Below, piece after piece: positions 16,779 through 45,496 of a stretch of 58,845 nucleotides of DNA. Where the stretch lies: assembly GCA_021792185.1 (NCBI GenBank), contig JAJYVD010000009.1:1-58845 (forward strand). Direction: 5' to 3'. Below the pieces are notes generated by a model. That model was not told where the DNA came from. It saw only the letters and a list, made by a program, of their open reading frames with translations, and did not search any database. The number at the start of each line of letters is the position of its first letter. The first letter of the stretch is position 1. Made by a program: the position numbers and the translations under genes. Origin of the DNA: Nitrospirota bacterium (GTDB lineage: Bacteria; Nitrospirota; Thermodesulfovibrionia; Thermodesulfovibrionales; Dissulfurispiraceae).

Positions 16779-17228
16779 TCATTGCAATTGCTTTACGAAC
16801 GCCTTTCCCGTTGCGCTGTAAAATACTACCTTAATGCCGTAATCTGGATGAGTAAACTCCCTTACGATAGGAATGCCGTAACCGCCCAGTATCTCCTTCG
16901 CTATCCTTATGTTCTCCCTGCCGACGTCGAGGTGATCTCCGAGACCTTTAATCACACGCCCTCCCCCAAATAACTTTGCTTTGATGTTACGGACATCGAT
17001 GCCGGCTTTTATAAATCCCGAGACAAGACTTTCTACGGACTCGGAGCCGCAGTATAAGGGATTTTTTATGCCGTCCGTAATATCCGGAAGCATAAAATGG
17101 TTCATCCCGCCTATCCCGAGTTCCCCGTCCCATAAACAGACGGCCACGCAGGAACCGAGCACGGTCTCAAGTACTGCCGGTTTGTCGGATACTACTATGT
17201 CTCCAATATTTAAAATTATGCGCTTCAT
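16779..17228 (-). CDS. cheD: Chemoreceptor glutamine deamidase CheD
   Basis: A 149-aa enzyme that deamidates receptor glutamines. The catalytic Cys27 in LGSCVAV and His44 in GGMNHFMLP are present, with KLFGGG further on. It is the last gene of the leftward chemotaxis operon, overlapping cheR by 4 bp (ATGA). No cheC or cheB is seen. Confidence 0.9.
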   Translation of the reverse strand: MKRIILNIGDIVVSDKPAVLETVLGSCVAVCLWDGELGIGGMNHFMLPDITDGIKNPLYCGSESVESLVSGFIKAGIDVRNIKAKLFGGGRVIKGLGDHLDVGRENIRIAKEILGGYGIPIVREFTHPDYGIKVVFYSATGKAFVKQLQ

Positions 17229-18163
17229 TGTTTCTTATACACGGTTATATATGCCGGTTTAAATTTACCGTTGCCGAGCATTGTCTCCGAATGCCCGAGG
17301 AAAAGATATCCGTTATCCGACAGGTGGCGGTGAAACATCGACAGCACATGCCGTTTCATATGCTCGTCGAAATATATCATCACGTTCCTGCAGAATATAA
17401 CGTCAAACTCCCTGCTGAACGGGTACGTCTCATCTTTGAGATTCAATCTCCTGAACCGTATCATATCCCTCACAAAATCCTTCACCTTAATCATCCCTGC
17501 ATGCTCTCCGGTGCCTCGAAGAAAATATCCTCCCAATAAAGGGAGCGGGGTATCGTCAGGAAGCTCCTCATATTCGTATATGCCGGTCTGGCCGGTCTCG
17601 AGCGCCTTTGTGGATATATCAGTGGCAAGCACCTTTATGTTCCAGCCCGATATGCCGCTCATAGCCTCGGACACGGCTATGGCTATGGAATAAGGCTCCT
17701 CTCCAGTGGAGCATCCCGCGCTCCATATCCTAATAGCCTTTTCAAGCGACTTAGTTCCGGCCACATCAGGGATCACTTTGTTTTTCAGATATTCGAAATG
17801 ATACTGCTCCCTGAAAAATTTGGTAGTGTTTGTGGATATGCAATTAAGCATTTCGACCAGTTCTTGATTATCGCTCTTAACCTTCTTGTAATATTCGGAA
17901 AAGCACTGCATGCCGAATTTTTTGAGTCTCTTTGCGAGACGCGAAGCCAGCAGACCCTTTTTCCGCTCATCCAGTTTTATTCCTGATGTTGTGTTGATGA
18001 GGTCCGAAAAGAGATGAAATATTTCGTCGCTGACGGACAATTCAGGGGGGACAAAGGATGGGGAGAGAGGGTCAGGGGAGAACTGACCCGAAACCTTTGT
18101 CCCGCGCCTTTCTTCATTAGTATAAAAAACTCCATCTAAATCAGAACTCCTCGAATCCGCCAT
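17225..18163 (-). CDS. cheR: Chemotaxis protein methyltransferase CheR
   Basis: A 312-aa SAM-dependent methyltransferase for receptor glutamates. ATG 18163, preceded by GGAGAAAAG and overlapping the receptor stop by 23 bp, is preferred to the longer frame. After a Pro/Ser-rich linker the CheR N-domain begins at [19 protein letters not shown]. The SAM site is [16 protein letters not shown], and NVMIYFD is also typical. Confidence 0.92.
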
Positions 18164-19847
18164 TCGTCTTTTCTCCGGACGCAAGGGCTGTCCTGGATTT
18201 CTCAATTCCGTAAGCAGGGGCATGAGGTGAAGTCTTTGCCGTCTCCCGTGAACCCAAAGCCCGCGCAATCTTTTTTACGGCAGGCGCATACAGCCTCGTC
18301 TCTCTTTTAATCCCTCTCTCAACATAAACTTCTTCATCAACCTTGAAAAACGATATTAAGTTAAGCAGCTCTTTCGCCTGCGCTGCAAGTTCTTCAGCCG
18401 ATGCGGATGTCTCTTCAACAAGGGATGCGTTTTGCTGTGTTGCCTGATCTATCTGCGTTACCGCGCTGTTCACCTGATTGATGCCGGATGCCTGCTCTCC
18501 TGCAGCCGCTGCCACTTCATCCATTAAGTCTGCCACTTTCTTTACGCTTACCCCTATGTCGTCGAGTTTCTTGCTCAATTCCTGCGCAAGCTGCACTCCC
18601 CTTCCGGTCTTCTCTACGCTGTCCTCTATCAATCCGGTTATCTCTTTTGCAGACTGAGATGCCCTCTGCGCGAGGTTCCTTATTTCGGATGCCACTACGG
18701 CAAATCCCTTGCCGTGCTCTCCTGCCCTCGCCGCTTCTACTGCGGCGTTCAATGCAAGCAGGTTCGTCTGGAATGCTATCTCTTCTATTACGTTGGATAT
18801 GTTGGCTATCTTGCTCGATGATTTGTTTATTTCGTCCATTGCGTTTATGGTGTCGCCCATGACTATGCTTCCGGATTCGGCTATGCCTTTTGTATTCTGG
18901 GCAAGTTTGTTCGCTTCCCTGGCGTTCTCGGCCGTCTGTTTTATGGACGCCGACATCTCTTCCATTGTGGCGGATGTCTCTTCTATGGACGCGGCCTGCT
19001 CGGTTATCCTCTGTGAAAAGTTCTGGTTCGCTTCCGCTATCTGATCCGCTGCCGTTGACACCTGTCCAGATGCCTCCTTTGTCTGGGTGATTATGCTTTT
19101 GACTTTGCCGACCATTGCCTTAAAGCTGGATGCCATATCGCTTATTTCGTCATTTGTATGAATGTCCACGCCTTTTGTCAGATCGCCTGTTGCCGTTGTG
19201 TCTACCCAGCCGGAGATATTGTCGAGGTTCTTCTTAATCGGCCTTGCCAGAAACAGAACAGAGCCTGAAATCAGGGAGCCGAGTATGAGGGCATAAACGA
19301 GCAAAGATGTCGTGCCCATGCTGTCCTGCATCGCCTTCATGCTTGTTATATCCCTGTCTATAAGCTTCTTGACGCCGAGTCTCATATCGGTCAATGCCTC
19401 TTGAGTCGTTATTAAGTTGGGCTTTGTCTCTTCTTCGTAAACCTTCCTCGCAACGTCCGCCTTGTTTTCTTTCATTAAGGCGATTATCTTAGGGGCTGTC
19501 GCATGGAACTTCTTATGAGGTTCTTCTATTCTCCTGAACGCGTCTTCCAGTTCCTTGGGCGGTTTATAACCGTAATACCACTTGCCGAGATTGCACTGAG
19601 TGTGATCTATCTGTCCTTTAAATTCCTTATTGAGCATCATAGTGCCTACGGCAAGGCCCTCCGCCCATTTAAAGTGGTCTATGGTTACTGAGCCTAAAAG
19701 GGCCTGAAGTTCGGGATACTCCTGAACCGCGTTAAGCTGCGCCTTTGTGCTTTTAATGCTCGCCTGGAAAAATATCGCGAGGCCTATGAGCACCGCGGTC
19801 AATACCCCTATGCCGATATACAATTTTTTTGAAATAGTCATTCTCAT
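18141..19847 (-). CDS. Methyl-accepting chemotaxis protein with CZB-like sensor
   Basis: A 568-aa receptor. ATG 19847 has AAGGAGG at good spacing. TM1 is about residues 8-28, the periplasmic sensor 29-190, TM2 is [20 protein letters not shown], then HAMP and the cytoplasmic hairpin with its tip [22 protein letters not shown]. The sensor carries His58 (HFKW), Cys85 in [10 protein letters not shown], and His111/His115, the 3His-1Cys pattern of chemoreceptor zinc-binding (CZB) domains. CZB is usually cytoplasmic, so the external location is notable. The signal may be zinc or an oxidant (inference). Confidence 0.9.
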
Positions 19848-19863
19848 GATAAACCTCCTTATC

Positions 19864-19975
19864 AATCGTTATAGCGTTATAGTGTTGAGCGTTATTGCGT
19901 TTAGAAATTCTATTTTTATTTTCTTTCACGCTATAACCCTCTACGCTTTACGCTATAACGCTTCCGTTAATTGTT
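19864..19975. repeat. Short tandem array, inverted pair (GCGTTATA type)
   Basis: Units like AGCGTTATA run one way (19868-19900) and their complements (CGCTATAAC, CTTTACGC) the other way (19928-19967), forming a possible hairpin between the receptor and cheW genes. The same family recurs at 20466-20555 and 24843-24932. Confidence 0.75.
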
Positions 19976-20453
19976 CGTTTACTATCGACGCTTCTTCTTC
20001 CGTGAGAACTTTATTTATGTCGAGTATAAGCACCAGCCTGTCGCTGACCTTACCCATGCCTTGAATGAAGTCGGTTCTAATCTGCGAACCGAATGACGGG
20101 GTTGCCGAAACCGATTCTTTAGGCATGTGCATCACATCCGAAACCGAATCCACTATAATGCCCATAACGCCCCCTGAAAATTCCGTAACAATAACGCATG
20201 TATGTTTTCTATATCCCTCCGACGCCATCCCGAACTTCAGTTTTAAATCCACGACCGGTATGATGGTGCCCCTAAGGTTTATCACGCCCTTAAAGAATTC
20301 CGGCAGATGCGGCACATGCGTAATGCTTGCCATCTCTATAATCTCCTGCACATTAAGGGCATCGACCGCGTATTCTTCGTTGTTCAGGCCGAACGTAACA
20401 TACTGCCGTCCTTCTACAACCTCTCCCAAACTTGTTGCCGCCAAAGCATCCAT
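19953..20453 (-). CDS. cheW: Chemotaxis adaptor CheW
   Basis: A 166-aa SH3-like coupling protein joining receptors to CheA. Core: FGLNNEEYAVDALNVQEI, then INLRGTIIPVVDLKLKFGM and VDSVSDV. The last residues are encoded by the edge of a repeat array. It lies between cheA and the receptor gene, within the same operon. Confidence 0.93.
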   Translation of the reverse strand: MDALAATSLGEVVEGRQYVTFGLNNEEYAVDALNVQEIIEMASITHVPHLPEFFKGVINLRGTIIPVVDLKLKFGMASEGYRKHTCVIVTEFSGGVMGIIVDSVSDVMHMPKESVSATPSFGSQIRTDFIQGMGKVSDRLVLILDINKVLTEEEASIVNEQLTEAL

Positions 20454-20465
20454 AAAGACCTCCTC

Positions 20466-20555
20466 TTGCGTAATGCGTTATAGCGTTGTGCGTTATAGCG
20501 CAAGGGTTTTCTCCATAATCTCTATAACCCTATAACGCTTTACGCTATAACGTTT
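20466..20555. repeat. Short tandem array, inverted pair, overlapping the cheA 3' end
   Basis: GCGTTATAG-type units and their reverse complements flank a short spacer. The right half encodes the last ~20 residues of CheA (RYSVKRYRVIE...), so the array has extended the protein. Confidence 0.72.
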
Positions 20556-22703
20556 TTTCGCCATTTCTACGATGCCCGGCACATCGAGAACCAGCGCCAC
20601 CTTGCCGTCGCCTAAAATGGTTCCGCCCGCTACATCGCATATTTGCGGCATAGCCTTGCCTAAGTTTTTTAAAACCACCTGCTGTTCCCCCAGAAGCTCG
20701 TCAGCAAGGAGGCTGTATTTTATGCCGTCATGCACTGTAACCACTACAATCGCCTCCCATGGGTCTTTTTTCCACGGGGTTATGCCTAAAATCTCATAAA
20801 GCCTGAGAAGTGGAATATATTCGCCCCTCACATTTACCACCTCTCCTTTTTCGCCGAGCGTCTTTACGTCATCGCGGCGCGGCCTGAGGGACTCCACAAC
20901 CGATGTTATAGGTATCACAAAAACCTCTTCGCCTACGATCACCGTAAGGCCGTCTATAATTGCGAGCGTGAGCGGAAGTTTAATAGACATCGTAGTTCCC
21001 TCATTCTCCTTAGTTTTGATGTAAACCTTACCGTTGAGGAACTCTATATTTCTCTTCACAACATCCATTCCGACCCCTCTGCCGGATACGTCCGTTACGG
21101 CGTCGGCAGTTGAAAAGCCGGGCATGAATATGAGGTTGTAAATCTGTTCGTCGGCAAGGCTGTGCGCATTCGTTATAATCCCCTTTGAGACGGCTTTTTC
21201 GACTATCTTTTCCTTATTAAGCCCCCTGCCGTTGTCCTCTACGTCTATGTAAACGGAGTCTCCCATCTGATAGGCGCTGAGGTGGATCGTCCCTTTTTCG
21301 GACTTTCCTTTTTTCATCCTTTCTTCAGGGGTTTCGATCCCGTGGTCTATGGCGTTGCGGATAAGATGCACCAGCGGATCGGCTATCTTCTCGATCACGC
21401 CTTTGTCGAGCTCCGTGTCTTCACCGGTGATGATCAGCTCTATATTCTTGTTCTTGCTCTCGGAAAGCTCCCGCACGAGCCTCATGAAACGCTGAAATAC
21501 CTCTCCTACCGGCAGCATACGCAGAGACATGGCGCTTTCCTGAATATCCTTCCCTATCCGCTGGAGCTGGGAAAAGAGCGCCTCCATATTTTGCGCTGAA
21601 TTATGCGTCATGAGAGATCCGTTTTTACCGTTGCCGCCATTATCCGTTACCGACAACCAATTGCCGCCTTGAAGGGCCTGCTGGAACATAGAGTGTATTA
21701 TTACCATCTCTCCAACGATGTTTATAAGGTGATCGAGCTTGCCGAGATCGACCCTGATGGTGGACGAAACAGATTTTTTAAAAGAATCCGTCTTGATGTT
21801 TCTCTGTTTCTCCAGCGCCTTCTCCACATCGACAGGAGAAACTTTGCCCTGTTCTGCAAGTATCTCGCCCAATCTTTTTTGGCTTTTCAAGGCATCCTCC
21901 ACATCTTCTGCCTTTACAACGCCTTCATCTATAAGCATCTTGCCTATAAAAGGCACGTCCTTTCCCGGGGTTGCTACAGGGAATATCTTTATCTCGCTTC
22001 CTTCTTCCACAAACTCGAAAACCTTTCTTATATCGGCTTCATCCCTGTTTGTTTTAAGAAGAATATCCCATCTCAAGTAAAGGTTTTCGGGGTCCAGTTC
22101 CGACAGCCCCGGAACCGTATCCGTATTGGCGGTTATATGCACGATCTCCCCTATATCCTTAAGGTCTTCTATTATCATCGAGGGGTCTATTCCCCTCTTG
22201 AAAAGGTCGGGGTTGGGAATGAAGATGACCTTAAATGTTTTGAGTCCGGAGCTTTGACTTCGGGGTTCCGCTGTTTTGTCCTTTTCTGTCCGTGAACTCT
22301 TAACTCTTAACTCTAAACTCCGGCCTTTTATCTCTTCCATCCGTTTCAACAGACCCTCGCACCTGCCGAAGTCAAATTCCATTTCGGACGCCACGGCCTC
22401 TACCATCTCTTTTATCAGGTCGGTCGCTCCTAGGAGCACGTTTATTAACGCCTTTTCCGGAGTAATTTTATTCTCCCGCACCATATCGAGAATCTCTTCC
22501 AATCCGTGCGTGAATTTTGAAATGTCCGTCAGCCCTATAGAGCCGCTGGAGCCTTTGATTGTGTGGGCTGCCCTGAAAATGGTATCGATAAGCTCTTTGT
22601 CTCCGGGAGATTTTTCGATCCGCAGAAGCCCGTCCTCGAGCTCCGCGATCCTCTCCGTCGCCTCATCCACGAAAATGCCGTACAGTTTTTTAAAATCTAC
22701 CAT
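20493..22703 (-). CDS. cheA: Chemotaxis histidine kinase CheA
   Basis: A 736-aa kinase: HPt domain with His47 in AAHTIKGSSGS, a linker, dimerisation domain, HATPase (HLIRNAIDHGIETPEER, DNGRGL, GRGVGMDVVK) and C-terminal CheW-like domain. The linker contains a duplicated helical unit (about residues 255-295: GVVKAEDVEDALKSQKRLGE then GKVSPVDVEKALEKQ) resembling the type II secretion ATPase N-domain, which is unusual in CheA. An in-frame heptamer array encodes about residues 130-140 (22293-22320), and another array extends the C-terminus. Confidence 0.93.
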   Translation of the reverse strand: MVDFKKLYGIFVDEATERIAELEDGLLRIEKSPGDKELIDTIFRAAHTIKGSSGSIGLTDISKFTHGLEEILDMVRENKITPEKALINVLLGATDLIKEMVEAVASEMEFDFGRCEGLLKRMEEIKGRSLELRVKSSRTEKDKTAEPRSQSSGLKTFKVIFIPNPDLFKRGIDPSMIIEDLKDIGEIVHITANTDTVPGLSELDPENLYLRWDILLKTNRDEADIRKVFEFVEEGSEIKIFPVATPGKDVPFIGKMLIDEGVVKAEDVEDALKSQKRLGEILAEQGKVSPVDVEKALEKQRNIKTDSFKKSVSSTIRVDLGKLDHLINIVGEMVIIHSMFQQALQGGNWLSVTDNGGNGKNGSLMTHNSAQNMEALFSQLQRIGKDIQESAMSLRMLPVGEVFQRFMRLVRELSESKNKNIELIITGEDTELDKGVIEKIADPLVHLIRNAIDHGIETPEERMKKGKSEKGTIHLSAYQMGDSVYIDVEDNGRGLNKEKIVEKAVSKGIITNAHSLADEQIYNLIFMPGFSTADAVTDVSGRGVGMDVVKRNIEFLNGKVYIKTKENEGTTMSIKLPLTLAIIDGLTVIVGEEVFVIPITSVVESLRPRRDDVKTLGEKGEVVNVRGEYIPLLRLYEILGITPWKKDPWEAIVVVTVHDGIKYSLLADELLGEQQVVLKNLGKAMPQICDVAGGTILGDGKVALVLDVPGIVEMAKKRYSVKRYRVIEIMEKTLAL
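22293..22320. repeat. In-frame heptamer array in cheA
   Basis: Four units of AACTCTT/AACTCTA encode LELRVKS-like residues in the linker after the HPt domain. This is the same family as the array at 7638-7702 in the ATPase gene. Confidence 0.75.
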
Positions 22704-22734
22704 CCTCGTCCCCCGCTATGTTTCAAGCACAGAT

Positions 22735-23103
22735 CTACACCGTTGCGCCGGCCTCGACCGCTCTAAACGAGTCATCGACCGCAACGTCTCTTTTGCCGTT
22801 CACAAACTTAATAAAATTATTGGCTTCGATTAATTCCGTCGTCTTTTTAAATATCTCAGGGCAGGCCCCCGTCAATGTCAGGCATTTTTTCAACCTGGCC
22901 AGCCTGCCGCATGTCGTGGAAAAAAGCTGAAGACAATCCTCGTCTATCTCCGTTACTTTCTCGAAATCAACCACCACATGTTCCGCGTTGTCGAGGGATA
23001 CCATTAACGCCTCTTTAAGCCCTCCTGCATGTTCGGCGGTCAGTTCGCCGTCAAAGGTCAAGACGCCGAAATCGCCCGATTTTTCAAACCTGAAATTCAA
23101 CAT
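22735..23103 (-). CDS. STAS-domain protein (chemotaxis-associated)
   Basis: A 122-aa anti-sigma-antagonist-like fold (LTFDGELTAEHAGGLKEAL, VVVDFEKVTEIDEDCLQLF). The usual phosphorylatable DSxG serine is replaced (DEDC), so classical kinase control is unlikely. STAS proteins next to cheA and cheY are common, and a role in array signalling is inferred. Confidence 0.8.
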   Translation of the reverse strand: MLNFRFEKSGDFGVLTFDGELTAEHAGGLKEALMVSLDNAEHVVVDFEKVTEIDEDCLQLFSTTCGRLARLKKCLTLTGACPEIFKKTTELIEANNFIKFVNGKRDVAVDDSFRAVEAGATV

Positions 23104-23116
23104 TTTTCGACTCCTT

Positions 23117-23482
23117 TCATTTCGCGAATTTTTTGACTACGTCTATAAGCTGTTCCGGCGTAAAAGGCTTTACGATCCATCCGCTCGCGCCGGCCTGTTT
23201 GCCTTCCTGTTTCTTGGATTCCTGAGACTCAGTGGTCAGCATAACTATGGGCGTAAACCTGTATCCGGATGAACTACGGAACTGCTTTATGAATTCGATC
23301 CCGTCCATCTCCGGCATATTAAGGTCGGTCAACACCATCTCTATCTTCGTTCCGTTCAACTTGTTCAGAGCGTCCTTGCCGTTAACGGCGTCTATGACAT
23401 CGTAGCCCGCATCCTTGAGGGCAAAGGAAACCAACTGCCTCATGGACGCCGAATCATCGACTATAAGCACGGTCTTTGACAT
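23117..23482 (-). CDS. cheY: Chemotaxis response regulator CheY
   Basis: A 121-aa single receiver domain. ATG 23482 has GAGGAGGTGG upstream. Acidic pair in VDDSAS, phosphoacceptor Asp in LTDLNMPEMDG, Thr in VMLTTES and Lys in VKPF are present. It transmits CheA phosphorylation to the flagellar or pilus motor. Confidence 0.94.
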   Translation of the reverse strand: MSKTVLIVDDSASMRQLVSFALKDAGYDVIDAVNGKDALNKLNGTKIEMVLTDLNMPEMDGIEFIKQFRSSSGYRFTPIVMLTTESQESKKQEGKQAGASGWIVKPFTPEQLIDVVKKFAK

Positions 23483-23499
23483 TGCCTCCACCTCCTCTT

Positions 23500-23691
23500 T
23501 CATTGCTCCATCGGCGCGCTGCTCCCGCATTCCGGGCCCATCGCCTTTCTGAATATGGTTTCATATATCGGGCACACCTTGAAATCTTTTTTCGAACAAT
23601 AGTTCTCTCTTTCCTTTATGCTCGGGACATAAGGCGTTTCGTATGCCGTACATACGCCTACATAAACGTCATTATGAAACGGACAGCCCAT
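23500..23691 (-). CDS. Small Cys-rich protein, CP(H/F) family, in chemotaxis operon
   Basis: A 63-aa protein with GCPFHND, VCTAYETPYVPS, NYC and VCPIYE, the same spacing as the Pho-island proteins at 290 and 11870. GGGGG precedes the start. Four conserved cysteines could bind Fe-S or zinc. It sits between the split MCP and cheY, so it may modulate receptor signalling; this is inference only. Confidence 0.65.
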   Translation of the reverse strand: MGCPFHNDVYVGVCTAYETPYVPSIKERENYCSKKDFKVCPIYETIFRKAMGPECGSSAPMEQ

Positions 23692-23701
23692 CAATCCCCC
23701 G

Positions 23702-24406
23702 CTATTTAAAAATCATGACATTGCCTGTTTCGGCGGCGTCCGAAAAATCCCTATTTGCGCCGTAACCGAGAGCGTCCCGCATAACCTTTCTTTCCGACTC
23801 CATCGTATACATCCTTTCAAGCCACTCTCTATTACCGTCGCCTTCCCATGCGTGAATTTTTTCGCTCATATTTTTCGCCTTCTGTATCAACTCTTCCAGT
23901 TCCCCCTTAAATGCCGCAAGCGGCTCTATCACATGCTCTATGCGCTGGCGCGTTATGTCCTGAAACTGCATGGAAACGACTATGCCGCTTATGTCCTTCG
24001 CGAGGGACACTGTCTCGGCGCCGAGTTCGTCGAGCTGCTTTTTCAGGTCGGTTACGGTATCGTCTATCTTCTTCAGGGTATGATCGACAACCTTTTCTGC
24101 CTCTAAAGACATGGAACTGCTTTCCGCCGAGCTTTTTTCTGTCTTCGCGTAAATGCCCTTGATGTCGACGCCTACTTTTGTGATCAGTTTTTTTATCTCA
24201 TCCGCCGCCGTGTTTGACCTTTCCGACAGTTTCCTTACCTCATCCGCCACTATGGAAAAGCCCCTTCCGTGTTCTCCGGCCCTTGCCGCTTCGATGGCCG
24301 CGTTGAGCGCAAGCAGGTTGGTCTGGTCCGCTATATACTCTATCTCGGTCACTATCTTTTTTATGTTCTCTGCATCGTCCATTATAGTTTCCATTTCCTT
24401 AAGCAT
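23702..24406 (-). CDS. Cytoplasmic MCP signalling domain
   Basis: A 234-aa protein starting just before the receptor hairpin tip ([27 protein letters not shown]) and continuing into a long coiled coil. It lacks any sensor or membrane segment of its own. Its ATG overlaps the end of the preceding two-TM gene by 25 bp in another frame. It may assemble with that protein or be produced as a frameshift fusion. Confidence 0.85.
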
Positions 24407-24576
24407 ATTATATGACGGATTCTCTTTCTCGCAACCGATAGAACGACAACTGCAACGCCTGTGTTAAGCGCAATGGCCGACGCAATCCTCACAGCCCGGT
24501 CGTTTATGAGAGAAGTCGCCGTAACAAGCGTTAAAACTAAAATTATATACCCTGTCTTTACCGCTCCGGAGGTCAT
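24382..24576 (-). CDS. Two-TM small membrane protein before MCP domain
   Basis: A 64-aa protein from ATG 24576, overlapping the STAS stop (ATGA). Two hydrophobic helices ([17 protein letters not shown] and [13 protein letters not shown]) are separated by a short loop, with a basic end (ARKRIRH). This is what the membrane part of a minimal chemoreceptor would look like, and the signalling domain follows in a different frame. Confidence 0.65.
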
Positions 24577-24827
24577 AGCTGAAGACCTATGAACGACATT
24601 ATTTCGTTTATCTTCCCGGAACTCCTGATAATAAGGTTCTTGCCGTTCGCCTCGCACTCTTTTTTTGTCGCGATAAGCATCTGGATCGCCGCGACATCCA
24701 TCTTTTTGACGCCGCTGATATCCACCGTCAGTTCGTCGCATCTCATAAGCTCGCCCCAAAGGCTGCGGGCATTGTTCAAAAGGCCGTCAATGGTCAATTC
24801 ATCTTTAAATGTTACGCATCCGGACAT
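24573..24827 (-). CDS. STAS-domain protein
   Basis: An 84-aa STAS domain (LWGELMRCDELTVDISGVKKMDVAAIQMLIATKKEC). The expected DS(T/S)G reads MDVAA, so there is no phosphorylatable serine. It begins the receptor-related part of the operon; a short repeat array precedes it. Confidence 0.8.
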   Translation of the reverse strand: MSGCVTFKDELTIDGLLNNARSLWGELMRCDELTVDISGVKKMDVAAIQMLIATKKECEANGKNLIIRSSGKINEIMSFIGLQL

Positions 24828-24842
24828 AATAGACCTCCTAAT

Positions 24843-24932
24843 TAGTTACAGTGTAATGCGTTATAGCGTTGAACGTTCAGTGTCACATCTCAAAGGATTT
24901 TCTCCATAAGCTCTATAACCCTATAACGCTCC
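24843..24932. repeat. Short tandem array, inverted pair (GCGTTATAG type)
   Basis: GCGTTATAGCGTTGAACGTT on one side and CTATAACCCTATAACGCTCC on the other. It overlaps the last codons of the hypothetical gene at 24913-25215. Confidence 0.72.
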
Positions 24933-25215
24933 ACTCTCTACTCTTATTATGGGTTGAGTGAAGGTATTTGCCGCTCTTTTGATGCGTCCGCCTGGCGTTA
25001 GTAACCGCTGTCTTTTGCCTTTTTGTCGCGCATACTATGCTGTTTACTATGTTCAGCAGCGTGATCTGATCCGGCAAATCCATGCCCGCCCTTTCAGCGC
25101 ATATCCTAAAGCCCTCACCCTTAAAAAACCTTGTGGAATCGTTCCTCTCGGCGTCATCGGACAAATCATCCATAGCCTGAGCTATTACCGCTTCTGCAAG
25201 ATGTTTAATACTCAT
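24913..25215 (-). CDS. Hypothetical protein in chemotaxis operon
   Basis: A 100-aa protein with an acidic helical N-terminus (AEAVIAQAMDDLSDDAER), then RFFKGEGFRICAERAGMD and a helix ending TNARRTHQKSGKY. I do not recognise the family. The final ~12 residues lie in a repeat array and are probably not conserved. It is second in the sigma-54-headed operon. Confidence 0.55.
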   Translation of the reverse strand: MSIKHLAEAVIAQAMDDLSDDAERNDSTRFFKGEGFRICAERAGMDLPDQITLLNIVNSIVCATKRQKTAVTNARRTHQKSGKYLHSTHNKSREWSVIGL

Positions 25216-25239: not shown

Positions 25240-25428
25240 TTATACGGCTATCATGCAGTCCTTTCTCCACAGGCAGCCCGACTGATCACACCGCGCCGGG
25301 TCCATCCTCCCGAAACAGTCTGTATTGCCTTCAGCCCTCTGAATAGCCCTGATTAGCTCCATCTTTTTCAGATTCAACGCCTTTATGCCCATCGACATTG
25401 CCATGGACTTAATCTCCTGCATTTTCAT
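25240..25428 (-). CDS. SAP/Rho-N-like small Cys protein
   Basis: A 62-aa protein from ATG 25428, with GGAGGCG upstream. Residues 1-35 form a SAP/Rho-N-like helical motif (IKSMAMSMGIKALNLKKMEL-IRAIQ). The tail GNTDCFG...CDQSGCLWRKDC has four cysteines, a possible metal site. It is the first gene after the sigma-54 promoter. Function unknown. Confidence 0.7.
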   Translation of the reverse strand: MKMQEIKSMAMSMGIKALNLKKMELIRAIQRAEGNTDCFGRMDPARCDQSGCLWRKDCMIAV

Positions 25429-25500
25429 AACATCGCCTCCGGAAAGCACAAATTGTGAATAAAGCGTAAACAACCGGTGAACAAATTATGAATAAAAGAA

Positions 25501-25517
25501 AAGCAAGAGATATGCCT
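25501..25517 (-). promoter_or_regulatory. Sigma-54 promoter of the chemotaxis operon
   Basis: Minus strand AGGCATATCTCTTGCTT: GG and GC separated by exactly 10 nt, matching the -24/-12 consensus TGGCAY-N5-TTGCW except for A instead of T at the first position. A start near 25491 leaves about 60 nt of leader to the SAP-like gene. Confidence 0.75.
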
Positions 25518-25560
25518 AAAGGTTATCGCATTGATTTATAAAAAATTAATCGAATGGTAC

Positions 25561-25596
25561 AGCAAAAACTCTGGAATTCATTCCATAGTTTTTGCT
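25561..25596. promoter_or_regulatory. Inverted repeat, candidate enhancer site 1
   Basis: AGCAAAAACT.TGGAAT-TC-ATTCCA.AGTTTTTGCT, nearly perfect over 36 bp and centred about 75 bp upstream of the -12 element. The core TGGAAT...ATTCCA is shared with site 2. It could also act as a terminator-like hairpin for the regulator gene at 25773. Confidence 0.65.
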
Positions 25597-25661
25597 GCGA
25601 TTATATCGGTAAAAAACTCGAAAATGCCGAATATGTAAGCAGTTAAAGACATTTCCTCTCG

Positions 25662-25683
25662 ACTATGGAAATCATTCCATAGT
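25662..25683. promoter_or_regulatory. Inverted repeat, candidate enhancer site 2
   Basis: ACTATGGAA-ATCA-TTCCATAGT, centred about 170 bp upstream of the -12. Same core as site 1. Two dyads at this distance are typical of NtrC-family activator sites. Confidence 0.65.
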
Positions 25684-25772
25684 TTGACCTGAAAAATGCA
25701 TTCAGCCTAATTTGGGCGATTTTAAAGTAGTAATAGATGGCAGGTATGATGAAAGAATCGGTCAACTTGGAT

Positions 25773-27131
25773 TTAGGAAATCGCGTATTCTTTTATCTTT
25801 GTAAGGAGGGTCTTGTAGTCTATCTGGAGCATCGCGGCAGCCTTTGTCTTATTGCCCTTTGTCATGTCAAGCGCCTGCTTTATAGCCTTCCTTTCAACGT
25901 CCCTTACAGCAATAGCAGACACCTCCTTCAGCGGCATGAAAGCAAGGTTATCCGTATCGCTGCCGCATTTATCGCCTATTAAAAACTCCACATGTTCGGG
26001 CATTATCATATCGCCGCTGGAAAGCAGCACCGCCTTCCTGATCATGTTCTTCAGTTCCCGCACATTGCCGGGCCACGGATACTTCACTAAGAGTTCCAGC
26101 ACATCGTCGGAGATACCGCGAATCTGTTTATTCATTTCGCTGGCGGCCTCCCGTAAAAACCTCCTGGAAAAGAACGGTATATCGTCAATGCGCTCCCGTA
26201 ATGGAGGGAGTGTGATCATAAACTCTCCGAGCCTGAAGAAAAGGTCTTCCCTGAATTTTTTTTGTGCTACAGCCTCTTTTATATCTATGTTGGTTGCCGC
26301 AATTACGCGTATATCTATATTTAGAGTCTCGGTGCTTCCGAGAGGGGATATCTTTTTTTCCTCGACGACCCTCAGCAGCTTGCCCTGAATATGCGGGGGA
26401 ATATTCTGAACCTCATCGATGAGTATTGTGCCCCCGTCGGCGCACTCGAAAAATCCTTTCTTTTTCCTTTCGGCGCCTGTAAAAGCCCCTTTTTCATAGC
26501 CGAAAAGTTCGCTTTCCACAAGGGTTTCCGGCATGGTTCCCATATCGACATTAATAAAGGGCCCCTTTGCCCTTTTACTGAGATTATGTATCGCACGGGC
26601 AACGGTAGTCTTTCCGGTTCCGGTCTCTCCTTGTATAATCAATGAAAAATCGCTCCACGCGACCTGATGAATCTGCTTAATGATCTTCTTAATAATATCG
26701 CTGCTGCCCAAAAGCCATTCGAGGGACGTCTCAAAGGCGATGTTTAAATTTTCCACCTTCCGTTTTAATTCCAGCTTTTCTATGGCCCTTTTCAGCGTCA
26801 ACATCAGCCGGTCGAATTTCGGAGGCTTGACTATAAAATCATACGCGCCCATTTTTATCGCCTCCACCGCGGTTTCTATGTCTCCATGCGCGGTTACCAG
26901 TATTACAGGCACATCAGCGTCTATTTTTTTCAACTCCTGCATTGTCTCTATCCCGTCCATATCCGGCATCTTGAGGTCCAGCAGTACTGCCGAGGGTCTT
27001 TCATTTTTAAAGACTTCTATTGCCTTTCTGCCGCCGGCAACAGCCGTTACGGAAAAGCCCGATTCTTCAAGTATCTCGGTAAGAGTAATCCTCAATATCT
27101 GCTGGTCGTCTACCACAAGCACCTTATTCAT
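25773..27131 (-). CDS. NtrC-family sigma-54 response regulator
   Basis: A 452-aa protein: receiver (VVDDQ, LLDLKMPDMDG), AAA+ domain with Walker A GETGTGKTT, the sigma-54 contact GAFTGA (EKGAFTGAERKK), DEVQNIPP in the Walker B region and RVIAATN, then a Fis-type helix-turn-helix (GNKTKAAAMLQIDYKTLLTKI). It overlaps the kinase gene by 8 bp. It probably activates the adjacent sigma-54 promoter via the two dyads at 25561-25683. Confidence 0.92.
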   Translation of the reverse strand: MNKVLVVDDQQILRITLTEILEESGFSVTAVAGGRKAIEVFKNERPSAVLLDLKMPDMDGIETMQELKKIDADVPVILVTAHGDIETAVEAIKMGAYDFIVKPPKFDRLMLTLKRAIEKLELKRKVENLNIAFETSLEWLLGSSDIIKKIIKQIHQVAWSDFSLIIQGETGTGKTTVARAIHNLSKRAKGPFINVDMGTMPETLVESELFGYEKGAFTGAERKKKGFFECADGGTILIDEVQNIPPHIQGKLLRVVEEKKISPLGSTETLNIDIRVIAATNIDIKEAVAQKKFREDLFFRLGEFMITLPPLRERIDDIPFFSRRFLREAASEMNKQIRGISDDVLELLVKYPWPGNVRELKNMIRKAVLLSSGDMIMPEHVEFLIGDKCGSDTDNLAFMPLKEVSAIAVRDVERKAIKQALDMTKGNKTKAAAMLQIDYKTLLTKIKEYAIS

Positions 27132-29460
27132 TTTTCTTTTCCCGTCCTTCTATTATATTGCGGAGTTCCTTGTTCAGGTCTTCAACCTTATAAGGCTTAA
27201 CAAACGCACCGCAAAACCCGTATTGCCTGAAATCGGCCAGCACCGGATCGTTAAAATACGCGCTGACGACAATCGCTTTAACGGACGGGTCAAGCCTCAT
27301 AAGTTCCTGAATAGCTTCTTTCCCGCCCATTCCGCCCGCAACGGTCAGATCTATTACAACAGCGTCAAACGGCTGCCCTGCCCGCATAGCGCTTTCATAA
27401 ATTTCTATCATCTCTCCGCCGTCCCTCGCAAGCTCTACGCTGTATCCCAAATGCCTCAGAATGTCACCGGTGAATTCGAGGATATTCTTGTCATCATCCA
27501 TTACAAGTATGTTGCCCCTGCCGCCGTATACCGTGCCTCCGCCTTTCGGCATTACAACCGCTTTCTCCGAGGCGGGCAGATATACATGGAAGGTTGTACC
27601 GGACCCCACTTCGGATTCTAAAGCGATATGGCCGTTATGTTTCTTCACAATGGAATAGGCCACTGCCAGACCGAGACCGCAACCGCCGCGCTTTGTCGTG
27701 AAAAATGGGTCGAAAATTTTTTGCAGGTGATCTTCAGGAATGCCGACACCGCTGTCCTGTATAGACAGCTTCACATATCTGCCGTTTTTCAAAGGGATAG
27801 AGGCCTCGGGTTTTATATCGATATTTTCAGCGAAAATCCTTACCGTGCCTCCATCAGGCATGGCGTGGTTTGCGTTAATAAGTAAATTGGTGAGAACCTG
27901 AATAATCTGTCCTTCATCGGCTTCGACAGGCCGAAGGTCGTCTGGAAGGGAAATTTCGCATCCTGCATCCGAACCGCTCATAACAAGATTGATACTGGTG
28001 TCGATCAGATCCCTTACAAAAATACTCTCCTTTATAGGGAGCCCTCCTTTTGCGAATGTAAGGAGTTGCTGGGGCAGGAACTTAGCCGTGAATATGATAT
28101 GCTCCGCTTCGTTCAGTTTTTTAAAGACCTTATCCTCCGGGTCTGCGTATATCCGCGCGGCAGCGATCTTAAGCGAGATTGCTGCAAGCATGTTATTGAA
28201 ATCATGTGCGATGCCCCCTGCGAGCATACCGAGGGAATCGAGCTTATCGGTCTTTATCATTTCCTCTTCTATCCGTCTTTTTTCGGTGATATCCCTCGAA
28301 ACTATTATTACATTTTTTACTGTTCCGTCATCTTCTTTAAGGGGAAATGCGCTCACGTCCCATATCCTGCCGTCAGGCGTTATAACCTCGGAGGCTTCCA
28401 CATTCCCTGTTTTGAAGCTCTTTATCGCATAGCAGTCAGCGCAGGGCATGGAACGTTCGAACCATAATTCATGGCAATGCCTTTCTATAAGGTCGGAGAC
28501 CTCTTTGCCCAGGCTACGGGCAGCGCCTTTGTTCGCCCATGTCACCTTCAAGTCGGATGAAAGAAGAAGCAAGGTATCGGGTATGGCGTCCAGAAGGGCA
28601 TTAAACTCCTCTGAAAGTTTCTTGTATCTGCCCTCGCTTTCCAGCAAACCCTTCTCAACCTCTCTTCTCGCCGATACTTCTTTATATAATTCCGCGGTGC
28701 GTTCTATGACCCGCTGTTCCAGCCTTTCGTTAGCTTCGGCAACTTCCCTTTCCGCCTGCTCGCGCGTATTTATGGCGTTCCGCGCCTTATACGAAATTAT
28801 GCCTACTGCCGCAAGAAAGACCAGACCGGCAAGGGACAGGCAGACGGAAGAACCGGCTATTACCTTAGTAAGCCGCCCTTTCTCTGCCGTAATATCCTTG
28901 TATATTTCAAATGCGCCGAGGAAGACTCCTTCCGCCGTTATGGGAACATATGTTTCAACAACATCTGCTGCGGCAATCTGCCCTTCAAGTGTTTTATCGC
29001 CTTTGTTTATAACTTTTTTGTAGGGATTTCCCTTCGCCACACTTTCTTGAAAGTACCTCTCTTCGTTTATTTTTCCGATATCCTCCGGGTCGCTGGAATA
29101 TATGACCTCCCCCGATGCCGAGAAGACCTTTACCTTCATCAGTCTAAAGTCCTTTTTGAAACGCAGGGCTTCGCTTTTAACGCCGGAGGGTAGAGAGTCC
29201 CCGTTAAGCCCTGTAACTCTTGAAAAGTATATGGTTCTCAGATGCGCCGCAATGGAAACGGCCTCATTTTCTATCTGTTCAGTCAACACACGATTAAATT
29301 CAGGCATCATCACGAATATGTTAAAGAGGGGCAATACCACCGTCATTGCTGTCGTTATAACCACGAGGAGTTTGATAATTCTCTTTTCCTTTGTAAATAA
29401 GCGGGCTATAAGTTGAAGTGGTTTTATATTCTGCACTGCGGATTTAAGGTCTTCGTTCAT
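27124..29460 (-). CDS. Hybrid sensor histidine kinase
   Basis: A 778-aa kinase: N-terminal TM, a periplasmic Cache-like sensor (about 60-210), second TM (SSVCLSLAGLVFLAAVGII), coiled coil, a PAS domain containing CHELWFERSMPCADC, HisKA (GGIAHDFNNMLAA), HATPase (DSGVGIPEDHLQKIFDPFFT) and a C-terminal receiver (VVIDLTVAGGMGG). The Cys-rich PAS resembles those proposed to bind a ligand or Fe-S cluster. It is the partner of the downstream NtrC-type regulator. Confidence 0.92.
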   Translation of the reverse strand: MNEDLKSAVQNIKPLQLIARLFTKEKRIIKLLVVITTAMTVVLPLFNIFVMMPEFNRVLTEQIENEAVSIAAHLRTIYFSRVTGLNGDSLPSGVKSEALRFKKDFRLMKVKVFSASGEVIYSSDPEDIGKINEERYFQESVAKGNPYKKVINKGDKTLEGQIAAADVVETYVPITAEGVFLGAFEIYKDITAEKGRLTKVIAGSSVCLSLAGLVFLAAVGIISYKARNAINTREQAEREVAEANERLEQRVIERTAELYKEVSARREVEKGLLESEGRYKKLSEEFNALLDAIPDTLLLLSSDLKVTWANKGAARSLGKEVSDLIERHCHELWFERSMPCADCYAIKSFKTGNVEASEVITPDGRIWDVSAFPLKEDDGTVKNVIIVSRDITEKRRIEEEMIKTDKLDSLGMLAGGIAHDFNNMLAAISLKIAAARIYADPEDKVFKKLNEAEHIIFTAKFLPQQLLTFAKGGLPIKESIFVRDLIDTSINLVMSGSDAGCEISLPDDLRPVEADEGQIIQVLTNLLINANHAMPDGGTVRIFAENIDIKPEASIPLKNGRYVKLSIQDSGVGIPEDHLQKIFDPFFTTKRGGCGLGLAVAYSIVKKHNGHIALESEVGSGTTFHVYLPASEKAVVMPKGGGTVYGGRGNILVMDDDKNILEFTGDILRHLGYSVELARDGGEMIEIYESAMRAGQPFDAVVIDLTVAGGMGGKEAIQELMRLDPSVKAIVVSAYFNDPVLADFRQYGFCGAFVKPYKVEDLNKELRNIIEGREKKNE

Positions 29461-32933: not shown

Positions 32934-33650
32934 CTAAATTGAAATCATGGTCATATACTGGCTTAACACATTAAACGTCCCTGTAAAAAGAAGGATACCC
33001 ACAACCACGAGAAACAACCCGCTCACAACAGATACCACCCTCATATAGCGGTTTATCTTTTTGAAATAGGAAAGGGCTGTGTTTATGGTAAGGGATGTGA
33101 TGAGAAAGGGTATCCCAAGACCCAGTGCATAGGCTGTTAACAGCTCTATACCACCTGCAACAGAATTTGAGGTGCTCGCATAAAGCAGTATTGAGCCTAA
33201 AACAGGACCTATGCATGGTGTCCAGCCGGCAGCAAAGGCTGTTCCAACGAGGAAAGAGCCTAAAAGTCCGGCAGGCTTGTTCTGCAGATGCAGCCTTTTA
33301 TCCTGCATCAGGAACCCAATCTTCAAAATGCCTGCTATATAAAGCCCCATGACTACAATCAGTACCCCTCCGATTTTCCTGACGGTGTCCTGATAGTCGG
33401 AAAGTATACTGCCCAGAAAGCTTGAGGACGCGCCGAGAAGGATGAATATTAATGAGAACCCGGCTATAAAGGATAAGGAGTTTTTAAGGGTTACTTTTCT
33501 TATTCTTCCTTTGTCCTGCTCACCTGTCAGGTCTTCAAACGATATGCCTGTGATATACGAGACATAGGATGGGATGACGGGCAAAACACACGGTGAAAAA
33601 AAGGACAGGAGACCTCCGCCAAATGCCATTAACAATGATACATTTTCCAT
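32934..33650 (-). CDS. ccdA: Cytochrome c biogenesis protein CcdA
   Basis: A 238-aa membrane protein with six TM helices. SFFSPCVLPVIPSYVSYI holds the first redox Cys, and AFAAGWTPCIGPVLG the second. It passes reducing power from cytoplasmic thioredoxin to periplasmic thiol proteins. It is followed upstream by a TlpA-like thioredoxin, its natural acceptor. Confidence 0.93.
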   Translation of the reverse strand: MENVSLLMAFGGGLLSFFSPCVLPVIPSYVSYITGISFEDLTGEQDKGRIRKVTLKNSLSFIAGFSLIFILLGASSSFLGSILSDYQDTVRKIGGVLIVVMGLYIAGILKIGFLMQDKRLHLQNKPAGLLGSFLVGTAFAAGWTPCIGPVLGSILLYASTSNSVAGGIELLTAYALGLGIPFLITSLTINTALSYFKKINRYMRVVSVVSGLFLVVVGILLFTGTFNVLSQYMTMISI

Positions 33651-39445: not shown

Positions 39446-41239
39446 TTACTTATGATAAGCATCTCCTGCCTTCGCTGTATTGTCATACCTATCCTGCTCT
39501 TTTTCGTATAGACCCTTTTTCTTCGCAGCCGGAATAGAGAAATTGCCCTTTACCTGCCACTTATCCTTCAGGTAATACCACGGGGCAAAGTCCTCGATCT
39601 TCCAGCCTTCCTTAACCTTTATCTCCGTCGTGGCCTGCATACCCTTTATGAACAATCCATTCTTATCGGCAATCACAGAATGTTTGCCTTCAAAGGGATC
39701 TGCGCCGGCATCCGCATACTTCCACGAAACATCCTGTTTCTGCTCTCCGTCCTTTGTGTGACAGCTTTCGCACTTCCTCGACTTGCCGTATTTGTGGGAG
39801 AGTTTGTCCATCTGTATCCATGCGAGGGCGTTGTCATTGGAAGGCAGTCCGCTCAGGAGTCCTACGAAGGCATAAGCATCATCGGTTCTTTTCAAGTCCG
39901 GAAGATTTTTGGGGAACCTCCATGCGAGACCGGGTTTAAGGCCGCTGTCGGTCTTTTGATTCATTACAGCCATTGCATAAGGTTTTACGGGAATCCATCT
40001 GCCATTCTGATCCTTTATCAGGATCGGCTCTTTCATAACACCGTAGTACTCTTTATATTTAAAAAACGGCGTTTTTATGCCTGCCATCTTTCCGGGCCCC
40101 CAGAATGTTCCGGTGTATGCGCCGACATCCTGTACATGACATGCCTCGCATGAAACCTTTCTATGAACGGACTTTGCAACAGATTTCACCGCATTATCGT
40201 GACATTTCGAACAGATTGCCTGCCTCTTTACCTCTCCATGCATGAGTTTGGCGTCCTTGGCAGTCGTATCATGGCAGTCGGTACATAAAAGCCCCTTTGT
40301 ATAATGGATATCCGCCGTGGCTCCAACAGGATTGGAATACAGACCTCCGATGTATCCTCCTCCCCTTCTCCTGTCCTCAGGGCCTGCATGGCAGATAGAA
40401 CCCCTGCCTCCGCCATAGCAGGTCTGGGATGATATGTTCTTTGTAAATGTGTGGGAACCTATAGTCTGGTTGTTCGGGTCTTTCTTCTTAGGACTGTAAT
40501 GGCAATCGAGGCATCCGACATGGCAGATATTGCATGCCTTCTGATTAATAGCCGACATCTCCTTTGTAAAAGGCACCTTCGTATTCTTTGATATCTCCTC
40601 ATACCCTTCCACAAACCAGACACCGCAGTTATGGGGGCCCATCTTCTTGTCCGCCCATGTCTTGTAGAGCATCTGTTTTGTATTGTGTCCCATGGCTGTT
40701 TGCTTTAATTCCTTTACCTGTTTGGGATGGCATACTCCGCAGGTCTTTTCCCGCACAGGATAGTTGAAGGAAAGGTCTTCAGGATTTTTGTCATGGAAAA
40801 GGATTGTTGCGACTTCCGGGTCTTTTATGAGTTTTCCGTCTTTCTCGACCTTTGGGAGCAGTTCGACCAATGGGTTTTTGCCTTTAGGTTCCAGCGATTC
40901 GGGTTTATATTTATCAAGCTTATCCCTTGTTACAGCCTGAAGCCCCTTTGACTTCACATAATAAAGCCTGAGCAATCCCTTGTGCGCTCCTTCTTTGGTT
41001 GAATCGGAAGGATTGCCGAGATGACAGCCGGTACAGGATGCAGGCATTTTTGTCTGCTTTTCCACCTCCTGCTGTGTAACTGCAAATTGGGGAAAACCCA
41101 TCTCCTTCATCTTTGCAGCATTGCCGTGGCATTCAATACAGCTATTGACATCCTGCGGCTTTTGCTGGGCGCTTAGTTTATTGCCAAAAAACAATACGAC
41201 AATACACAGCGCCAGAGCCGGTAATACTTGCTTTTTCAT
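39446..41239 (-). CDS. Multiheme cytochrome c
   Basis: A 597-aa periplasmic protein with a signal peptide (about 1-24, ...GNKLSA). Nine CXXCH heme sites are visible: CIECH, CTGCH, CGVCH, CNICH, CLDCH, CTDCH, CSKCH, CEACH, CESCH. A further C-YGGGRGSI-CH (CX8CH) may bind a tenth heme. Many spare His can act as distal ligands. I cannot match it to NrfA, OTR or HAO, so its electron partner is unknown. It has its own sigma-54 promoter and lies beside a kinase/NtrC pair. Confidence 0.85.
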   Translation of the reverse strand: MKKQVLPALALCIVVLFFGNKLSAQQKPQDVNSCIECHGNAAKMKEMGFPQFAVTQQEVEKQTKMPASCTGCHLGNPSDSTKEGAHKGLLRLYYVKSKGLQAVTRDKLDKYKPESLEPKGKNPLVELLPKVEKDGKLIKDPEVATILFHDKNPEDLSFNYPVREKTCGVCHPKQVKELKQTAMGHNTKQMLYKTWADKKMGPHNCGVWFVEGYEEISKNTKVPFTKEMSAINQKACNICHVGCLDCHYSPKKKDPNNQTIGSHTFTKNISSQTCYGGGRGSICHAGPEDRRRGGGYIGGLYSNPVGATADIHYTKGLLCTDCHDTTAKDAKLMHGEVKRQAICSKCHDNAVKSVAKSVHRKVSCEACHVQDVGAYTGTFWGPGKMAGIKTPFFKYKEYYGVMKEPILIKDQNGRWIPVKPYAMAVMNQKTDSGLKPGLAWRFPKNLPDLKRTDDAYAFVGLLSGLPSNDNALAWIQMDKLSHKYGKSRKCESCHTKDGEQKQDVSWKYADAGADPFEGKHSVIADKNGLFIKGMQATTEIKVKEGWKIEDFAPWYYLKDKWQVKGNFSIPAAKKKGLYEKEQDRYDNTAKAGDAYHK

Positions 41240-41465: not shown

Positions 41466-42812
41466 CTATATGCCGTATCTCCTCGTTTTTCTCCAGAGGG
41501 TTGTCTTGTCGATTCCGAGGATTTCTGCTGCCTTTGCCCTGTCACCGGCCGTTTCCTTAAGAACATTAAGGATGTGCGTCTTTTCCATCTCTCTCAAGGT
41601 CGGTGTCTTTCCTTTTATCCCCTTTGTCTCATATCTTCCTGAAATATGGTCAGGGAGATTGGCGATTGTTATCATATTCCCTTCCATCAGGTTTATAGCC
41701 CTCTCGATTACATTCTCCAGTTCCCTAACATTCCCTTTCCAGTCGTATTGCACGAGTGAATTAAGGGCATCCTCTGTTATCCCTTTCACCGACCTTCCAT
41801 AATAGGCATTAAACTTTTTTATGAAATGCTCGACTAAAAGGGGGATATCCTCCCTTCTTTCCTTTAATGAAGGCACTGTTATTGTAACGACATTGAGCCT
41901 GTGATAAAGGTCTTCCCTGAATTTCCCTTCCTCAACCAGCATCTCAATGTCTTTATTTGTCGCAGAGATAAACCTTACATCCACTGATATCTCCTGTGTG
42001 CCTCCAACCCTATAGAAGCTCCGCTCCTGAATCACCCTCAAAAGTCTTATCTGCATTGCCTCGCTTATGCTTCCAATCTCATCGAGAAATAAGGTTCCGC
42101 CGTTTGCCGCTTCTATAAGTCCGCTTTTTTGTGTAAGCGCTCCTGTAAATGCGCCCTTTTCATGGCCGAAAAGTTCATTTTCAAGAAGCGTGTCCGCTAT
42201 TGCTCCGCAGTTCACCGCAATGAATCTGTTCCTCCTTCTCGGTCCGTTGAAATGGATAGCCCTTGCTATCAGTTCCTTACCTGTTCCGCTCTCGCCGAGT
42301 ATTATCACATTCGACCTGGACTGCGCCACCCTTTTAACGAGATCGAAGACCTGCATCATCTTGGGATGATGTCCAACTATGCTTTCGAAACCGAACCTTT
42401 CCGACAGCTCTTCTTTAAGCATCCTGTTTTCATCGATAAGCCTCTTATTGTCGAGGGATCTATCTATTATGAGAAGCAGCTCTTCGGGGTCAATGGGTTT
42501 TCGCACATAGTCGTAGGCGCCTGATTTCATAGCCTCTACAGCGCTTTCAACAGTAGAAAAGCCTGTAATCATAATAACGGGTGTTTCAGGGAATATCCTT
42601 TTGCTTTCCTTCAATATGGTCATGCCGTCAATATCTGGCATCTTCAAATCCGTAATCAGAAGGTCGTATTTACCATCCCTGATTTTATGCATCGCCTCTA
42701 AACCGCTCTTTATAATTTCGTATTCACAGCCGTATCTTGCAAATATCCTTGTGAGGATGGAGCAGGCGACAGGGTCGTCGTCTATGGCGATTATCTTTAA
42801 ATCCTCATGCAT
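41466..42812 (-). CDS. NtrC-family sigma-54 response regulator
   Basis: A 448-aa protein: receiver (IDDDPVA, LITDLKMPDIDG), AAA+ (GESGTGKE, GAFTGA in EKGAFTGALTQK, FISATN) and a Fis-type DNA-binding end (GDRAKAAEILGIDKTTLWRKT). It overlaps the kinase gene by 8 bp. The sigma-54 promoter 130 bp downstream of its stop makes the cytochrome a likely target. Confidence 0.92.
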   Translation of the reverse strand: MHEDLKIIAIDDDPVACSILTRIFARYGCEYEIIKSGLEAMHKIRDGKYDLLITDLKMPDIDGMTILKESKRIFPETPVIMITGFSTVESAVEAMKSGAYDYVRKPIDPEELLLIIDRSLDNKRLIDENRMLKEELSERFGFESIVGHHPKMMQVFDLVKRVAQSRSNVIILGESGTGKELIARAIHFNGPRRRNRFIAVNCGAIADTLLENELFGHEKGAFTGALTQKSGLIEAANGGTLFLDEIGSISEAMQIRLLRVIQERSFYRVGGTQEISVDVRFISATNKDIEMLVEEGKFREDLYHRLNVVTITVPSLKERREDIPLLVEHFIKKFNAYYGRSVKGITEDALNSLVQYDWKGNVRELENVIERAINLMEGNMITIANLPDHISGRYETKGIKGKTPTLREMEKTHILNVLKETAGDRAKAAEILGIDKTTLWRKTRRYGI

Positions 42813-44739: not shown

Positions 44740-44815
44740 CAGCCTGTCAGCAATTTGCAATTTAGCCTTTAAAAATTTTTGAAGAAAAATTCTTTCAAAC
44801 AGACTAAAATAAGAC

Positions 44816-45496
44816 ATGATCCCTTTTAAAGACGATAATCCCACACAGACGTTTCCCTTTGTAACAATCTCATTGATTGTTATAAACTGCATTGTATTCA
44901 TATGGGAACTCTCATCGCCGGCAGGCATTCAGAAGATAGCCTATTTTTACGGAGCAATACCTCACAGCCTGATCTCATTTGAAAGCGTCCAGCCTGTTCC
45001 GGTTGCGGCAAGCATATTTACATCGATATTTTTGCACGGCGGCTTTTTCCACCTCGCCGGCAATATGCTCTATCTCTGGATATTCGGCAACAATATCGAA
45101 GATTCGGTCGGACATTTTAAATTTTTTATATTCTACCTATTATCGGGCATCATAGCAGCCTACAGCCACGCTCTTACAGACGCTCATTCCACCATACCCA
45201 TGATAGGCGCGAGCGGCGCGGTGTCGGGAATCTTAGGGGCGTATATTCTTTTATTCCCCCATGCCCGGGTTTCTACGCTCCTATTTTTCGGATTCTTCTG
45301 GCAGATCGTCAGGATTCCGGCCGTATTTGTAATCGGCTTCTGGATAGTGATACAGGTCATCAACGGCCTCCTCAGCAAAGGCATGCTGAATCAGGGCGGA
45401 GTAGCGTGGTTCGCCCACATAGGCGGATTTCTTGCAGGGCTTATAACCATTAAACTATGGCTTCCGCGCAAAAGGCACGAAAAAATTTATCATTAA
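44816..45496 (+). CDS. Rhomboid family intramembrane serine protease
   Basis: A 226-aa membrane protein with six or seven TM helices. Catalytic Ser in GASGAVSGILGAY and His in AHIGGFLAGL; HGGFFHLAGNMLYLWIFG is the L1/TM2 signature. It cleaves membrane proteins within the bilayer; the substrate is unknown. Confidence 0.92.
   Translation: MIPFKDDNPTQTFPFVTISLIVINCIVFIWELSSPAGIQKIAYFYGAIPHSLISFESVQPVPVAASIFTSIFLHGGFFHLAGNMLYLWIFGNNIEDSVGHFKFFIFYLLSGIIAAYSHALTDAHSTIPMIGASGAVSGILGAYILLFPHARVSTLLFFGFFWQIVRIPAVFVIGFWIVIQVINGLLSKGMLNQGGVAWFAHIGGFLAGLITIKLWLPRKRHEKIYH

Follow-up and report, generated by a model that had tools for sequence, protein, structure and literature searches.

A predicted sigma-54 enhancer switch with paired activator dyads upstream of a chemosensory operon in Nitrospirota

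Chemosensory operons and NtrC-type regulators

Sigma-54 promoters require an activator of the NtrC-type class, and activation of this kind with the assistance of IHF is textbook knowledge. Chemosensory clusters have been connected to such control before. In Myxococcus xanthus, the NtrC-type sigma-54 regulator CrdA is tied to the chemosensory system Che3 and to a dedicated histidine kinase, CrdS, and CheA3 acts on CrdA (PMC3510030). Sigma-54 promoters have been predicted for the che clusters of Geobacter (PMC2577667), and that paper cites Martin et al. 2006 for a che sigma-54 promoter in Rhodobacter. The operon described below resembles the latter two in having a sigma-54 promoter, predicted or shown there, and resembles CrdA/CrdS-Che3 in that an NtrC-type regulator is encoded with the che cluster. 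However, CrdA is described as controlling developmental genes (PMC3510030), whereas here the putative regulator sites precede the che operon itself, and unlike CrdS, a dedicated kinase, the adjacent kinase is not conserved. The Geobacter analysis predicted a promoter; the present one connects an activator gene, dyads, an IHF-like element and a regulon shared across families. With NtrC, AtoC and ZraR-type systems the locus shares the domain order, the GAFTGA loop, paired palindromic upstream sites and, between enhancer and promoter, an IHF-like site, with the geometry seen in PMC7962754. Unlike them, it has a different dyad sequence, and its regulator stays under the curated NCBIfam equivalog cut-offs (AtoC 442.6 of 714, NtrC 382 of 558.6, ZraR 360.5 of 760). 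Our literature search returned no paper on an NtrC-family activator of a che operon in Nitrospirota, nor any description of this activator, dyad or regulon. To our knowledge, the dyad sequence is undescribed. Che-linked sigma-54 promoters are already known or predicted and IHF-assisted NtrC-type activation is known, and the activator, the dyad and the regulon appear to be new and well supported in silico.

The window, i.e., the whole stretch of DNA analyzed (58,845 nucleotides), corresponds to contig 62 in a 2.65-Mb genome of Thermodesulfovibrionales (Nitrospirota), whose closest named relatives are Nitrospirae MAGs such as GWB2_47_37. The minus strand carries, in order, a hybrid kinase gene (29460-27124), the regulator gene (27131-25773), 344 bp of intergenic DNA and the chemosensory operon (25428 to 16779). 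The start of the regulator gene shares 8 bp with the kinase gene. The regulator (25773-27131) has the domains of an NtrC-type enhancer-binding protein, with a REC domain, a sigma-54 interaction AAA+ domain with GAFTGA at residue 215 and a Fis-type HTH with the recognition helix IDYKTLLTKIK. The operon, all on the minus strand, starts with genes for a 62-aa Cys-containing protein (25243-25428), a 100-aa protein of unassigned function (24913-25215) and an 84-aa STAS-type protein, named by resemblance (24573-24827). These are followed by a broken gene for a membrane MCP-type receptor (23702-24759), a CheY-type response regulator conserved in relatives (23117-23530), a STAS (anti-sigma-factor-antagonist-like) protein under the curated cut-off (22735-23103), CheA (20493-22703), CheW (19953-20453), a methyl-accepting chemotaxis receptor recognized from its sequence and its relatives (18141-19865), CheR (17225-18268) and, as the final gene, CheD (16779-17228).

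The broken MCP-type gene consists of two ORFs (24759-24382 and 24406-23702). Compared with the sister species G012 (locus L135), about 345 nt are missing, a net deletion of roughly 334 nt with a frameshift, so that the TM and signalling halves are separate; the gene is intact, at about 400 aa, in G012, G013, G006 and G007. The break may be a true deletion or an assembly error. A stand-alone HPt-like gene (about 139 aa) is found between STAS and CheA in G012, G013 and G006 and is absent in the window (22703-22735). In G013, the promoter and the che operon are separated by about 3.3 kb that include two foreign ORFs (L136 3681-6886), and the start of the 62-aa gene is duplicated, with the second copy after the insert. 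Flagellins (contigs C86, C30 and C78) and several PilT-type ATPases (C40, C11 and C44) are encoded in the window genome, which makes both flagella and type IV pili possible targets of the che operon.

Promoter and dyads in the window

A sigma-54 -24/-12 element, AGGCAT-ATCTC-TTGC, lies on the minus strand at 25517-25503, with GG at 25516-25515 and GC at 25504-25503; the predicted start is near 25491. It has the GG-N10-GC, within TGGCAC-N5-TTGC, of a sigma-54-dependent promoter and carries two changes relative to TGGCAC (T to A and C to T). An IUPAC scan with three mismatches gave chance-level counts (396 matches versus 397 expected) and was uninformative, so a weighted matrix, our own approximation of the published consensus, was used instead. 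With this matrix the box scored 14.3 bits; only three sites on the two strands of the window, this one included, had 11.5 bits or more. When the 360 nt that follow the regulator gene were dinucleotide-shuffled 200 times, no shuffle equalled it. No sigma-70-like site was found on the minus (coding) strand of 25380-25800 by a simple scan, which a weak second promoter could escape. The window genome has one rpoN gene (Sigma54_DBD match, 206 bits). The top sigma-54-like score of the window, 15.5 bits, belongs to a minus-strand site at 33231-33247 within an ORF (32934-33650) and is possibly a chance match. A second regulator/kinase pair with the same layout (41466-42812 and 42805-44928) has a 15.2-bit box at 41335-41319, before the gene 39446-41239.

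Two similar dyads lie between this box and the regulator gene, centered about 75 and 170 bp away from the GC of the box. The proximal one, D1 (25560-25597), has the minus-strand core TATGGAAT-GA-ATTCCAGA at 25570-25587 within an inverted repeat with 18-nt arms, and the distal one, D2 (25662-25685), a predicted activator site, has the core TATGGAAT-GA-TTTCCATA at 25664-25681. Over 24 nt (25568-25591 versus 25662-25685) they are 92% alike, at a spacing of 94 bp. A search of the whole 2.65-Mb genome for TATGGAATNNATTCCA with at most one mismatch retrieved only D1, D2 and one asymmetric match on contig C80, and the full TATGGAATNNATTCCATA pattern matched D1 and D2 alone. Since the dyads occur at a single locus in this genome, we rejected an origin in a mobile element or dispersed repeat. 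The G012 counterpart of D1 (L135 about 6387-6425) is likewise part of a long inverted repeat; the outer arms of that repeat have another sequence and remain complementary.

The sequence-only reading of this DNA had placed a GG-N10-GC element at 25501-25517, two inverted repeats at about 75 and 170 bp from it and, further upstream, genes for an NtrC-type activator and its kinase, and had proposed that the promoter and the two activator dyads drive the chemotaxis operon. The box score, together with the likeness of the dyads and their uniqueness in the genome, confirms what had been observed, at the distances given, and both genes are indeed there (25773-27131 and 27124-29460). The proposal itself is strongly supported by the comparative genomics described below.

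One element was absent from that reading, an IHF-like site, AATCAATGCGATA, on the minus strand at 25524-25536, which matches WATCAANNNNTTR at 8 of 9 positions and lies 5 nt upstream of the 17-nt sigma-54 motif. The window site by itself does not reach significance (p=0.155); what speaks for it is recurrence at two preferred positions, with related elements (9/9 in several cases) located in many relatives either at this place or shifted by about one helical turn. Genes in the genome match best to HU, to IHF beta (slightly below the cut-off) and to IHF alpha (above the NF001401 cut-off).

Conservation across families and the regulon

Regulator orthologues were gathered by whole-genome searches of the family and the phylum, plus a scan of 84,980 species genomes. 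After the regulator stop there is a recurrent order of two TATGGAA-N4-TTCCATA dyads, a sigma-54 box of 12-16 bits (similar to that of the window in about 20 orthologous loci) and, mostly, a che operon. Many of these loci have an AATCAA-type IHF-like element between the dyads and the box. The layout was found in the GTDB families f1, f4, f8, f12, f14 and f18 and in Syntrophorhabdus, which belongs to another phylum, and in most loci the paired-dyad score was reached by none of 200 shuffles. Its recurrence in about twenty related genomes makes the switch very probably real. The dyads of a pair are 20 bp apart in most lineages, so the 91-94 bp of the window genus are unusual. The distances from the proximal dyad to the promoter cluster at 48-49, 59-63, 72 and 83 bp, i.e., in steps of about 12 bp, and a 10-12.5-bp periodicity as strong was matched by none of 20,000 random sets, with related loci collapsed by hand, so that some relatedness remains. 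In G008 the regulator is broken, there is no adjoining che operon and the sigma-54 box has decayed. In G028 and G219 the orthologues precede kinase genes and not che genes.

Dyad variation also seems to follow the recognition helix. Nearly all regulators with TATGGAA-N4-TTCCATA dyads have the helix IDYKTLLTKIK (LLT). An LLR variant (L149/L198) goes with TATGGCAT-TATGCCATA and a second similar copy, in which the half-sites have changed symmetrically, and another (L030) with a related dyad, TTGGCATTTTGCCA. The LLS variants (L142 and L033) have dyads shorter by one base. A clear TGGCA dyad was not seen for the LLR regulators L139 and L162, and distant regulators without such dyads carry different recognition helices. 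On a tree of 36 regulators the dyad label changed 3 times, versus 12 in shuffles, many deep branches being weakly supported. This pattern would tie the dyads to the regulator, with small counts for the variants (two LLR and two LLS loci).

The tandem-dyad pattern was present in 13 of the 395 phylum genomes; the regulator is encoded in 44 of these, of which 10 had the pattern, versus 3 of the 351 without it, and the reversed control pattern had no match in the same 395 genomes. Among the three genomes without the regulator, G022 retains a remnant of a deleted regulator gene and the match in G057 looks like chance. Dyad pairs in trans, away from the regulator gene, precede CheY-CheR-kinase genes (G007), MCP-STAS-CheY genes and a receiver-kinase gene (G024), MCP genes (G027 and G028) and a STAS gene (G022). 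They have sigma-54-like boxes at similar distances, weak (8-9.5 bits) in G027 and G028. In the window genome the che promoter is the sole dyad-bearing promoter found. A dyad pair with a 14.3-bit sigma-54 box was also seen at L240 (G214:C4 22599-22631), in a genome in which no close regulator orthologue was found.

Mechanism, rival readings and the phosphate donor

What is computed directly from the genomes comprises the sites and their genomic uniqueness, how they are conserved and spaced, how they covary with the helix, and the presence of the RpoN and IHF genes. Very probably the sites belong to a conserved sigma-54 enhancer switch, in which the regulator (25773-27131) would act on D1 and D2 and, with a probable IHF bend, open the promoter of the che operon. 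The phosphorylated regulator would bind the two TATGGAAT/ATTCCATA dyads as dimers and assemble there into an AAA+ ring; IHF would probably bend the DNA between the dyads and the promoter, allowing the regulator to contact sigma-54 RNA polymerase at 25517-25503 and open the operon promoter (25428 down to 16779). The overlapping upstream hybrid kinase would be the likeliest phosphate donor in the window genome. We infer that the regulator binds, that it activates and does not repress, where the transcript starts and that kinase and regulator are a pair.

The position of the dyads directly 3' of the regulator gene is also what would be expected if the regulator transcript folded into hairpins there, as terminators or 3' ends, and the resemblance of the box to a promoter were incidental. 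D1, in its 18-nt-arm repeat, gives an RNA fold of -23 kcal/mol (z -6), and the outer arms of G012, different in sequence yet complementary, fit as well. However, a T-run terminator was not found, most orthologues carry only short dyads paired 20 bp apart, the spacing to the promoter is periodic and equal dyad pairs precede che-type genes far from any regulator gene. Such pairs in trans led us to reject a purely terminator role, and we consider the hairpin explanation as a whole highly improbable. It is also improbable, on balance, that the regulator binds these sites as a repressor, or that the che operon also or mainly uses another promoter. The AT-rich intergenic region speaks for such a reading. 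Against it, the simple scan of the coding strand detected no sigma-70-like site, different families have kept the sigma-54 box at regular, stepped distances, and a sigma-54 promoter needs an activator of the NtrC class.

The source of the phosphate is a different matter, and here a rival compatible with the promoter part of the preferred explanation has more weight. The kinase (27124-29460, minus strand) is a membrane hybrid histidine kinase with a PAS domain, HATPase and a C-terminal REC domain, and two TM-like stretches seen by eye. The sequence-only reading had called its PAS Cys-rich; cysteines are present (Cys329, Cys340 and Cys343), but three are not unusually many. The only orthologue of the kinase is in G012 (79%), the next best match being partial, at 46%. 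In the third member of the genus and at the other che-linked loci the regulator is kept beside che genes without an adjacent kinase. We therefore rejected the kinase as part of the conserved switch, and it is a local and probably late addition. The earlier claim that through it one signal governs the whole chemotaxis set lacks support as a general rule, with orthologues only in the window genome (G000) and G012. The same distribution would fit a main or ancestral phosphodonor other than the adjacent kinase, i.e., CheA, another kinase or a small phosphodonor, with the promoter as described; were CheA or another donor to phosphorylate the regulator, the chemosensory array may control its own transcription. 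There is a precedent in Myxococcus, where CheA3 and CrdS jointly set CrdA~P (PMC3510030). On the other hand, some regulator orthologues stand before kinase genes at loci where CheA is not close by. Overlapping kinase and regulator genes are typical of cognate pairs, so the overlap in the window genome suggests that the two may well be cognate there. We regard a different main donor as possible and rather unlikely. A more specific version is doubtful: the regulator would be the transcriptional output of its own array, with CheA, or the array acting through CheA, setting its phosphorylation and the adjacent kinase serving as a late second input in two species. If true, the array would adjust its own abundance and, via the trans dyads of some species, that of other receptors.

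As for the conserved sigma-54 switch itself, the comparative evidence would mean that, in several families, a chemosensory system has an activator dedicated to it. The variants of helix and dyad that occur in nature would form a ready set for reading the specificity of Fis-type HTH domains. An uncultured lineage of Nitrospirota would gain a concrete and testable chemosensory regulon whose binding site can be predicted.
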